Assembly (NCBI GenBank): GCA_022730075.1 | Contig: DZBX01000006.1 | Span: 1 to 34,380 of the forward strand | Direction of reading: 5' to 3' | Source of the DNA: Rhodanobacter sp. | GTDB lineage: Bacteria; Pseudomonadota; Gammaproteobacteria; Xanthomonadales; Rhodanobacteraceae | DNA length: 34,380 bases | Shown: positions 4,692-7,314 of the stretch, one piece after another | How the letters are laid out: each line of letters begins with the position of its first letter | How positions within the stretch are numbered: position 1 is the stretch's first letter | Program-made: the position numbers and the translations under genes | The notes under the pieces: model-generated | What the model was told of the DNA's origin: nothing | Seen by the model: the letters and a program-made list of their open reading frames with translations, nothing else | Database searches by the model: none

Positions 4692-4877
4692 TGCTTGGAT
4701 GTGAAAGTCCTCTATCCACCCGGCAATGGGAAGGATGAGCGGAAGGCAAGGGCGTTTCGGGCGACCGGACGTCTGCAGGAAGCCGGAAGCAAAACGCTGG
4801 CCTGACGAACAGGAAGCGGATACGAGGCGACACGTTGGGGTGAGGCCCGTGATCGATGTGCCGACGCGCGCATGTTC

Positions 4878-4886
4878 TGGTATAAG
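4878..4886 (+). promoter_or_regulatory. Extended -10 promoter of the feo operon
   Basis: TGGTATAAG fits an extended -10 element (TGn followed by TATAAG). No good -35 hexamer lies 17 bases upstream, as is common for extended -10 promoters. Transcription would start near 4892, inside the adjoining Fur-like site, so the in-frame ATG at 4872 cannot be the feoA start. Confidence 0.6.
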
Positions 4887-4887
4887 A

Positions 4888-4908
4888 TGCGAATAATTCC
4901 TATCCGCA
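4888..4908. promoter_or_regulatory. Probable Fur box
   Basis: This 21-bp imperfect palindrome has arms TGCGAATAAT and CTATCCGCA-type sequence, with seven of ten positions paired. It resembles the GATAATGATAATCATTATC-type Fur operator in its TGCGAAT form. It overlaps the predicted transcription start of a ferrous-iron uptake operon, where iron-loaded Fur would be expected to repress. The call combines sequence fit with context. Confidence 0.55.
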
Positions 4909-4916
4909 AATGCCGC

Positions 4917-5246
4917 ATGTCCGCCATTTTGCCCGTTGCGCGCACTTCACCGCCTGTCGCGCCCGATCACACAGAACCGTGCGCGTTGCCGCAGGCATTG
5001 TCGACACTACCGCGTGGCGCATGTGCCGAGGTGCATGACCTGCAGGGCGGAGCAGGTGACGATGCATTGCTGGTGCGCCTGGCAGCACTGGGTTTCGTGG
5101 CGGGAGAATCGGTGCGCGTGCTTGCCCATGGGCCCATCGGCCGCGAGCCACTTCTGATACAGGTTGGACATACACGTTTCGCGCTGCGCCGTCGCGAAGC
5201 GGAGCGGATCATGGTCCTGCAGCGTGCGGATCAGGGGCGGCGATGA
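4917..5246 (+). CDS. feoA: Ferrous iron transport protein FeoA
   Basis: FeoA is a small cytoplasmic SH3-like protein required for Fe2+ uptake by FeoB. The 109-residue product has a non-conserved N-terminus of about 35 residues and then the FeoA domain: LSTLPRGACAEVHDL, a segment with LAALGFVAGESVRVLAHGPI, and the ending LLIQVGHTRFALRRREAERI. FeoA proteins are often about 75-85 residues, so the true start might be a later GTG or TTG. ATG 4917 was chosen because an earlier in-frame ATG (4872) lies upstream of the promoter. No clear Shine-Dalgarno sequence precedes 4917. The stop overlaps feoB as ATGA. Confidence 0.88.
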   Translation: MSAILPVARTSPPVAPDHTEPCALPQALSTLPRGACAEVHDLQGGAGDDALLVRLAALGFVAGESVRVLAHGPIGREPLLIQVGHTRFALRRREAERIMVLQRADQGRR

Positions 5247-7072
5247 ATACGGCGATGGATACATTACGCATCGCCTTGGTCGGTAATCCGAATTGTGGCA
5301 AGACCGCACTGTTCAATTTACTTACTGGAAGCCGACAGAAGGTTGCCAATTACGCGGGCGTGACCGTCGAGCGCAAGGAAGGCAGCTATGTCTCGCCATC
5401 CGGTCGCAGCGTGCATGTATTGGACTTGCCCGGCGCCTACAGCTTGGCGGCAACCTCGCCGGACGAAGTCATCACGCGCGAAGTGTGCCTGGGTACACGT
5501 CCAGAAATCTTGCCCGCGGATCTGATCATCTGCGTGGTGGATGCCACCAATCTGCGCCTGCATCTGCGTTTTGCCATGGAACTGCGTGTGCTGGGTCGGC
5601 CCATGCTGCTGGTCTTGAATCAGATGGATGCTGCACAACGGCGCGGCATCCGCATCGACGTTGCGCAATTGGCATGCGAACTGGAAATGCCCGTGGTGCC
5701 AACAATCGCCGTGCGTCGTGCAGGCGCTGCGGCGCTGGTGTCAATGCTGGATGGCCCATTGCCGGCGCCGCCCTCTGCACCCCCGGCTGACTTGCACGCG
5801 GAGGTTCGTCGGATCATGCGTGGCACGGTCGAGATGTCCGCAGACATGAGTCGGATCGAAGATCGGCTCGACCGCGTGTTGTTGCATCCGGTAGCCGGCC
5901 TGTTGATTCTTGCGGCCACGCTGCTGTTGATGTTTCAGGCAGTGTTCGCCTGGGCGCAGCCGCTGATGGATGCCATCGAGTGGGCGGTGAACGCGCTCGG
6001 CGCGTGGGTGCATGCGCTGATGCCGACTGGCGCGCTGGCCTCATTGCTGGGCGATGGCGTGATCGCTGGTGCCGGCAGCGTGCTGGTGTTTCTGCCGCAG
6101 ATCCTGATCCTCTTTCTATTCATCCTGCTGCTGGAGGAATCCGGTTATCTGCCACGCGCAGCGTTTCTGCTCGATCGTCTGATGCGCAGTGCCGGACTCA
6201 GCGGGCGCGCCTTCATTCCGCTGCTTTCCAGCTTTGCCTGTGCGGTGCCTGGCATCATGGCTGCGCGCAGCATCGAGAATCCGCGCGAGCGCCTCGCCAC
6301 GATCATGGTGGCGCCGTTGATGACCTGCTCGGCACGATTGCCGGTCTACGCGCTGCTGATCGCGGCTTTCGTGCCGCAGCGAGATGTGTGGCACGTACTC
6401 AATTTGCAGGGTTTGGTGCTGTTCGCGTTGTACGCGGCGGGCATCCTGTCGGCGCTGCTGGTGGCGTTCGTGCTCAAGCGTTTCGCCGGCCAGGGCGCCG
6501 ACGCGCACTTGCTGATGGAACTGCCAGCTTATCGCCTGCCGCGTCTGCGCAATCTCGCGCTCGGCTTGTGGGAGCGCATGCGCATTTTCATCAAGCGCGT
6601 CGGCGGCAACATCCTGGCGTTGAGCATCTTGCTGTGGTTTTTGGCCAGCTATCCGGCGGCGCCGGTGGGCGCCACGCTGCCAGCCATCGACTACAGCTTT
6701 GCCGGACAGATCGGGCGCTGGCTGCAGCCGCTGTTCGCGCCGCTTGGTTTCAGTTGGCAGATTGTGGTTGCGTTGATTCCAGGAATGGCTGCGCGCGAGG
6801 TCGCCGTAGGTGCGCTGGCGACGGTGTACGCCGTGGGCACCGATGGCGGACAGAGCGCTCTGGCTGCAACGATCGCCACGCAATGGTCGCTGGCCACGGC
6901 GTTCGCCCTGCTGGCATGGTATGTGTTCGCACCGCAGTGCATCGCCACGCTGGCCGTGATCCGCCGCGAAACCAATTCGTGGCGCATCGTGGCGTGGACA
7001 ACCGGTTATTTGTTCGCGCTGGCCTATGCGGCAGCGCTGTTCACCTATCAATTGACGCGCTGGCTGACATGA
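5243..7072 (+). CDS. feoB: Ferrous iron transporter FeoB
   Basis: FeoB is the GTPase-coupled inner-membrane Fe2+ permease. The product has 609 residues, shorter than the 773-residue E. coli protein. The N-terminal G domain shows G1 GNPNCGKT (14-21), G2 Thr41 in GVTVERK, G3 DLPG (61-64) and G4 NQMD (126-129). After a short linker region the membrane part begins at about residue 215 and carries the two Gate-type repeats (for example GAGSVLVFLPQILILF, SFACAVPGIMAARSIENPRE and GMAAREVAVGALATVY). It overlaps feoA upstream and a small Cys-rich gene downstream, each by ATGA, so all three are probably one Fur-controlled operon. Confidence 0.96.
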   Translation: MNTAMDTLRIALVGNPNCGKTALFNLLTGSRQKVANYAGVTVERKEGSYVSPSGRSVHVLDLPGAYSLAATSPDEVITREVCLGTRPEILPADLIICVVDATNLRLHLRFAMELRVLGRPMLLVLNQMDAAQRRGIRIDVAQLACELEMPVVPTIAVRRAGAAALVSMLDGPLPAPPSAPPADLHAEVRRIMRGTVEMSADMSRIEDRLDRVLLHPVAGLLILAATLLLMFQAVFAWAQPLMDAIEWAVNALGAWVHALMPTGALASLLGDGVIAGAGSVLVFLPQILILFLFILLLEESGYLPRAAFLLDRLMRSAGLSGRAFIPLLSSFACAVPGIMAARSIENPRERLATIMVAPLMTCSARLPVYALLIAAFVPQRDVWHVLNLQGLVLFALYAAGILSALLVAFVLKRFAGQGADAHLLMELPAYRLPRLRNLALGLWERMRIFIKRVGGNILALSILLWFLASYPAAPVGATLPAIDYSFAGQIGRWLQPLFAPLGFSWQIVVALIPGMAAREVAVGALATVYAVGTDGGQSALAATIATQWSLATAFALLAWYVFAPQCIATLAVIRRETNSWRIVAWTTGYLFALAYAAALFTYQLTRWLT

Positions 7073-7314
7073 CGGCCTTGCTGCAAAACCTATGCGTGGG
7101 CTTGGTGGTGGGAGCTGCGGTGGCGGTTTTGTTGCGACGCTGCTTGCCGCGACAAGCCATGCGCAGGGCAGTCGGGCACGTGCTTGTGCGTGTGCCTTCG
7201 CATCGTGTGCGGGAGTTGGCGCGCCGTTTGCTGACGCCGTCCACGCCACAGCCTGCGGCGGGTTGCGGTGCTGGCTGTCCGAGTTGTGGCGGCTGCGCAC
7301 TCAAGAAGCGCTGA
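7069..7314 (+). CDS. Small Cys-rich membrane protein of the feo operon
   Basis: This 81-residue protein starts at an ATG overlapping the feoB stop (ATGA). It has one predicted membrane helix at about residues 8-23 (LCVGLVVGAAVAVLL), a basic arginine-rich middle (RVPSHRVRELARRLL), and a C-terminal cysteine cluster GCGAGCPSCGGCALKKR. The arrangement recalls the small FeoC or FeoB-associated Cys-rich proteins that follow feoB in other bacteria, although it is not the winged-helix FeoC of E. coli. The cysteines could bind iron or an Fe-S cluster and sense or assist FeoB; that is inference. The gene is real by its tight coupling and the sensible membrane-plus-cysteine design. Confidence 0.82.
   Translation: MTALLQNLCVGLVVGAAVAVLLRRCLPRQAMRRAVGHVLVRVPSHRVRELARRLLTPSTPQPAAGCGAGCPSCGGCALKKR

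Follow-up and report, generated by a model that had tools for sequence, protein, structure and literature searches.

The window analysed here, a stretch of 34,380 nucleotides from Rhodanobacter sp., carries three consecutive feo genes on the + strand. The first, feoA, was placed at 4917..5246. Its product matches PF04023 (FeoA) with E=8.3e-16 on the frame 4872-5243; the open frame begins at 4872, and the sequence favours the ATG at 4917 as the start codon. The second gene, feoB (5243..7072), encodes 609 amino acids, scores 488 bits against TIGR00437 and matches PF02421 and PF07664. The FeoB chain ends in ...TYQLTRWLT, directly after the last common helix. The third gene (7069..7314), which we refer to as feoI-type (DUF6587), encodes 81 amino acids. 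Its ATG (7069-7071) overlaps the feoB stop codon TGA (7070-7072) in an ATGA arrangement, and the feoA/feoB junction shows the same ATGA overlap (5243-5246). Given this overlap, translation of the small protein is probably coupled to that of FeoB. Upstream of feoA lies a possible but weak Fur box (4886..4904, + strand; 12 of 19 matches to the consensus). It is one of six sites with at least 12 matches on the + strand of the window, the strand that was scanned.

The initial annotation had described an 81-residue product at these positions that starts within the feoB stop codon, with a single membrane helix, an Arg-rich middle and a cysteine cluster; each of these features was borne out. The membrane helix (residues 4-22; 7078..7134, + strand) has a hydropathy of 2.31 over 19 residues and is predicted to run N-out/C-in. 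Downstream of it, 13 positively charged residues stand against one negative. The Arg-rich middle (residues 23-55; 7135..7233, + strand) contains two helices predicted by AlphaFold (28-39 and 45-55), and its amphipathic moment is marginal (p 0.02-0.04, uncorrected). The cysteine cluster C66-X3-C70-X2-C73-X2-C76, i.e. CX3CX2CX2C, corresponds to GCGAGCPSCGGC (residues 65-76; 7261..7296, + strand) and is predicted to be cytoplasmic. Six cysteines are present in the whole protein, of which C9 and C25 lie in or beside the membrane helix. The AlphaFold model is firm for helix 2-25, with a pLDDT of 96-97 for residues 1-20, and less firm for the helices at 28-39 and 45-55 (about 65-82); the cysteine tail is poorly predicted (about 50). 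Overall, the model reaches a mean pLDDT of 73 and a pTM of 0.37.

Four cysteines within 12 residues are not rare by themselves in this G+C-rich window, as 19 of its 299 open stretches of at least 60 amino acids reach the same density. For this reason, cysteine density was not used as proof of a real gene, and the frequency of such frames is also what could be said for a chance open frame without a product. The probability of that explanation is negligible in view of a family match, the linkage to feoB described below and a dN/dS of 0.34. The latter was calculated over 81 codons against the nearest homologue (L002, from the same genus, 59% identity), and 31 of the 68 base differences between the two genes fall on third codon positions. 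On these three grounds the open reading frame at 7069-7314 is a real gene. The genome that holds this nearest relative (G012; L002, L016, L017, L018) has a pair of identical feoI genes located on separate contigs; a third copy, which is broken, lies close to the start of a contig. This may be an effect of the assembly.

The small protein belongs to PF20228 (DUF6587), which it matches with 42.5 bits (E=1.1e-10), above the curated cut-off of 27, and over the family length (residues 2-79 on profile positions 2-81 of 82). It falls below the cut-off of PF12669 (FeoB_associated), also 27, with 13.6 bits and E=0.084. Searching NCBIfam with the window protein gave one chance-level match, and a search of solved structures gave no relative and one chance-level match (E=0.71). 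At E 0.01 or better, 84 of 91 distinct homologues match PF20228 and 10 match PF12669; two proteins (L039 and L050) bridge the families, matching both at E<0.001. A comparison of a DUF6587-type profile (59 rows) with a FeoB-associated profile (17 rows, a small and partly rule-chosen set of which 13 match PF12669) gave a probability of 96.9% and a score of 54.5. Block shuffles that keep the composition of helix and tail reached at most 22.0, and none of 100 scored as high as the real profiles. Like the window protein, PF12669 proteins have an N-terminal helix, a basic flank, a cysteine cluster and a gene that follows feoB, but they differ from DUF6587 in lacking most of the basic middle. Judged by this profile match, the two families look like one lineage, with the basic segment added in DUF6587. 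Their members stand under two unconnected Pfam names, and a literature search for DUF6587 by name found no paper.

Among the Feo accessories, FeoC of E. coli has a winged helix and a CX4CX2CX5C cluster. Compared with the [4Fe-4S]-type cysteine cluster of FeoC, the window protein, as read from its letters alone, has CX3CX2CX2C near its C-terminus. FeoC (PF09012) and the FeoI-type protein share the operon place after feoB and a cysteine cluster near the C-terminus, and one of 12 FeoC rows matches PF20228 weakly (E=0.0063). Furthermore, the third feo gene of Acinetobacter baumannii is listed as feoC in Table 1 of the available text of one study (PMC10483418). These points could suggest that the open reading frame is a diverged feoC. 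However, a membrane helix takes the place of the winged helix, the window protein has no PF09012 match at E up to 1, and the alignment between the FeoC and FeoI-type profiles spans only 10 columns of the cysteine tail (probability 52%). Descent from FeoC is therefore hardly tenable, and the earlier view that this is not a winged-helix FeoC is upheld. In the Acinetobacter loci that we inspected (L248:3363-3620, L056, L062, L065, L069-L071, L074 and L087), feoB is followed by a DUF6587-type single-helix protein and not by a winged-helix protein; the gene labelled feoC in the tabulated part of the Acinetobacter paper (PMC10483418) is probably a member of this family.

The cysteines are conserved. 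After the helix, at least three are found in 91 of the 91 aligned homologues, three in 12 proteins, four in 66 and more in 13. The individual positions are occupied by cysteine in 79 (C66), 90 (C70), 76 (C73) and 86 (C76) of the 91 aligned rows, and the (3,2,2) spacing of the window protein is the commonest one (22/91). No column is fully invariant in the 91-row alignment, and C70 and C73 are invariant in a subset of 59 rows. Members of the Xanthomonas type carry CX2CX2C only. Past the cysteine cluster, 47 of the 91 homologues end in [LVI]x[FW], seen as PLxF or VKW, and this short motif is absent from the window protein.

For the linkage to feoB, genomes of named species were scanned with FeoB and not with the small protein. 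This yielded at least 596 stretches, at least 587 of them confirmed, from which the best 80 loci were kept; these hold the nearest FeoBs (59-69% identity), so that the following figure applies to that branch, and Stenotrophomonas is absent from them by name. In 79 of these best 80 loci, a single-helix open reading frame with a cysteine tail begins at the feoB stop, in line with the expectation that homologues follow feoB. In the remaining locus (L072) the contig ends 192 bases past feoB, and the start of such a frame is visible. A stricter script extracted 77 of the 80 frames, while L029 and L038 were recognised by eye. At control places in the same 80 loci, the helix-plus-cysteine rule was satisfied in 8 of 544 cases (1.5%). 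The start codon lies 4 or 1 bases before the feoB end in 37 of the 77 extracted frames. When 41 genomes were searched with the window protein, 15 gave a match, the window's own genome included, and the match follows feoB in all 15. PF20228 was found in at least four of the 274 genomes of the window's class, a lower bound as first-look candidates were only partly scored in many genomes (e.g. 19 of 56), and all four matches adjoin a FeoB_C match. Within the window's genus, three of 13 genomes contain a true FeoB and the same three contain the small protein; several of the other ten are incomplete (72-99%).

The genetic work on the DUF6587/FeoI family that we found in the literature is a study of Stenotrophomonas maltophilia (PMC9047314). 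According to the available text of that paper, FeoI (Smlt2212) is encoded by the third gene of a feoAB operon and has one predicted helix. In two-hybrid assays, pairing FeoB with FeoI-T18 raised activity about 42-fold above the controls, an interaction mapped to the membrane part of FeoB; binding between FeoA and FeoI was not seen in the experiments described there. In-frame deletions of feoA, feoB and feoI were made. The feoI deletion strain did not grow on ferric citrate in iron-depleted medium, a defect nearly restored by complementation, and the loss of feoI was harmless to growth on FeSO4 with ascorbate (PMC9047314). The window protein likewise follows feoAB as the third gene, is a predicted single-helix inner-membrane protein and is not a winged-helix FeoC. 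The likeness is judged from the place of the gene, the published description and relatives within the same bacterial family, not from the Smlt2212 sequence: Xanthomonas counterparts at the same place (L033, L034, L053) stand in the alignment of the DUF6587-type family, differing from the window protein by having three cluster cysteines where the latter has four. Taken together, we are nearly certain that the window protein belongs to the DUF6587/FeoI-type family and is a partner of FeoB. The suggestion of a structural partner of FeoB thus has support in print for S. maltophilia FeoI, as far as the available text goes (PMC9047314). The family of the gene is known, though little studied, and a likely counterpart and its partnership with FeoB are already in print for one species.

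The orientation of the protein in the membrane was predicted from charge. Among the 91 homologues, the mean charge is +3.6 over the 15 residues that follow the helix and -0.2 over those that precede it; the C-side charge exceeds the N-side charge in 89 of them, with two ties. In the class survey described below, the same bias was found in 23 of 24 FeoI-type proteins, two of which are also among the 91, and was reversed in one. By the positive-inside rule, this charge bias places the cysteine tail in the cytoplasm and the N-terminus outside, which we regard as very probable. A T18 tag on the C-terminus works only in the cytoplasm. The two-hybrid signal of S. maltophilia came from T18 fused to the C-terminus of FeoI, as stated in the accessible text (PMC9047314), and the predicted inside position of the tail agrees with this result. 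In contrast, TMHMM in the same study gave the reverse topology, with the C-terminus of FeoI outside (PMC9047314, available text).

Which accessory accompanies which FeoB was surveyed in the window's class. PF07664 (FeoB_C) was found at 124 places in 120 of the 274 genomes, and all 124 were taken (30 as loci, 93 fetched separately, plus the window). After dropping L236 (no core match) and L156 and L169 (both running off the contig), 121 had a readable feoB end. The helix-plus-cysteine rule was used for the counts, because the FeoI-type profile also catches FeoCs (24 of 54 loci with long FeoB); its control rate in this survey was 6 of 593 (1.0%). FeoC calls used a cut-off of E below 1e-4 and a profile whose rows had been picked by rule from this very survey; 12 of 12 checked rows match PF09012. 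A FeoI-type gene follows feoB in 25 cases (window included) and FeoC in 49; both together occur in none, and neither in 47, two of which have a contig end within 200 bases of feoB. Judging by the 47 of 121 ends that lack either gene, FeoB does not depend on these accessories. This either-or pattern of FeoC and FeoI-type genes was partly known before, and the count over 121 feoB ends is an addition. In the available text of Gomez-Garzon et al., PF12669 proteins occur in some species without feoC and PF12669 is fused to FeoB in some; a betaproteobacterial Feo system, thought to have been acquired by Xanthomonas, has a small cysteine-rich FeoC-like element (PMC8749426). Azotobacter vinelandii, according to the accessible part of a review, has one feoABC operon besides a single feoAB operon that comes with a FeoB-associated cysteine-rich protein (PMC10669500).

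The same survey showed a contrast at the C-terminus of FeoB: 24 of 25 FeoBs accompanied by a FeoI-type gene stop behind the last common helix, while 48 of 49 FeoBs with FeoC have one extra C-terminal helix. Single loci depart from this pattern. L206 combines the extra FeoB helix with a cysteine-tailed single-helix partner, and L223 is the opposite exception, having FeoC with an early-ending FeoB. The contrast would be explained if FeoI supplied in trans the last membrane helix that is absent from short FeoBs, and the predicted FeoI topology would fit such a role. Moreover, the tails of 59 long FeoBs scored 20.5 against the DUF6587 profile (shuffle maximum 18.9) and 28.4 against a PF12669-like profile (shuffle maximum 27.6; probability 82.6%), each with 60 block shuffles. 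However, the probability of the DUF6587 match is just 19%, and both matches span little beyond the helix. The extra helix also changes only twice on a FeoB tree of 133 rows made by a quick method, so that its coincidence with FeoI amounts to a single clade contrast; a Fisher test on the helix contrast counts loci of shared descent as if they were independent, and its p value does not speak for coupling. Outside the class, three of five Firmicutes loci (Enterococcus faecium, E. faecalis and Monoglobus) carry both the extra helix and a cysteine-rich protein, and Listeria and Subdoligranulum obey the rule. With two tree changes and a rule broken outside the class, replacement of a missing helix was dropped as the main explanation, and we consider it very improbable.

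The proposal of the initial annotation that the protein is a partner of this short form of FeoB was only partly confirmed. The nearest short FeoBs do have the partner, but other short FeoBs are without it (neither accessory was found at 22 of the 31 survey loci with a FeoB of the window's length class), and in the three Firmicutes loci a related protein accompanies a FeoB of longer C-terminus.

We therefore favour an explanation in which the protein is a FeoI-type subunit of FeoB with a cytoplasmic, iron-responsive cysteine site and a FeoC-like job, and we put the chances of this explanation as a whole at about even. The single helix would sit beside the membrane domain of FeoB, N-out/C-in, the basic segment would run along the inner face of the membrane, and the four-cysteine cluster would stand in the cytoplasm near FeoB. 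The four cysteines may form an iron-responsive site, occupied by either Fe(II) or an Fe-S cluster, which would sense iron or accept it; this site could keep FeoB stable or active under iron scarcity, as FeoC does elsewhere. The FeoC-like role is proposed by analogy, because only a short cysteine stretch is shared between FeoC and FeoI. The published phenotype would fit a role at low Fe(II), since ferric citrate with a chelator presumably is a low-Fe(II) condition and FeSO4 with ascorbate is not. FeoI seems not to be needed when Fe(II) is plentiful, given that the loss of feoI spares growth on FeSO4 in the experiments of the available text (PMC9047314). The metal-site mechanism of the cluster is put forward tentatively. 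Against it, members of the Xanthomonas type have CX2CX2C only, and the authors of the S. maltophilia study found no Fe-S site in FeoI, according to the part of the paper available (PMC9047314).

The same phenotype led these authors to propose that FeoI widens the substrate range of FeoB and that ferric citrate itself crosses the inner membrane. Such carriage is supported by the feoI deletion strain, which fails on ferric citrate but grows on FeSO4 with ascorbate (PMC9047314, available text). On the other hand, FeoB is known as an Fe(II) transporter, a cytoplasmic cysteine tail would be badly placed for periplasmic ferric citrate, and the medium with FeSO4 and ascorbate may simply supply more Fe(II). 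The authors themselves did not rule out dissociation followed by ferrous uptake, though they thought it not dominant, as the accessible text has it (PMC9047314). Transport of ferric citrate as such thus appears quite unlikely to us. Slightly better placed, yet still unlikely, is a role of FeoI as a pure assembly or protection factor of FeoB, for instance against the FtsH protease, with cysteines that serve folding or redox functions without iron. Binding of FeoI to the membrane part of FeoB (PMC9047314) and the shielding of FeoB from proteolysis by Salmonella FeoC (PMC9047314, PMC8749426), both as given in the available texts, are consistent with this role; that C70 (90/91) and C76 (86/91) are among the best conserved positions argues against it.

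An iron-responsive FeoI-type subunit would also bear on the wider question of the role of small FeoB accessory proteins, called open in the available text of Gomez-Garzon et al. (PMC8749426). Such cysteine-rich proteins were already termed FeoC-like there, the relation among FeoC-like, PF12669 and FeoC proteins being described as unclear (PMC8749426). Our additions are the argument for an inside tail, the joining of PF20228 and PF12669, and the either-or count with FeoC. Among the extra-helix FeoBs without a recognised accessory, five of 11 have at least two cysteines after the last common helix, compared with six of 48 among those with FeoC, where some of the cysteines lie inside the helix. 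Possibly, a single cytoplasmic cysteine site beside FeoB is common to many Feo systems and has been provided in evolution in exchangeable forms, on the winged helix of FeoC, on a single-pass FeoI/FeoB_associated subunit or on the tail of FeoB itself. The FeoI cluster would then hold Fe(II) or an Fe-S cluster close to the exit of the pore and do the work of FeoC; we regard this as a speculative reading with the odds against it. New in it is the single common site inside the cell. If the inside tail and the either-or pattern are true, simple cysteine mutants could show whether the cysteine site is the shared working part of the accessories.

Several individual loci are of interest in their own right. 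In L171, L181, L128, L129, L226 and L252, an extra-helix FeoB without recognised accessory ends its own tail in a cysteine pair or cluster. A FeoB encoded on a Pantoea plasmid, from outside the class sample, has a cysteine tail and no annotated FeoC, in an incomplete annotation. A search of plasmids with a Xanthomonas family member gave no match. Short feoAB pairs without feoI are found on plasmids, two from Acinetobacter and one from Sphingomonas (L239, L246, L249). The neighbours of the two Acinetobacter pairs are arsenic genes, or copper and cation-efflux genes, and hint at a possible part in metal tolerance.
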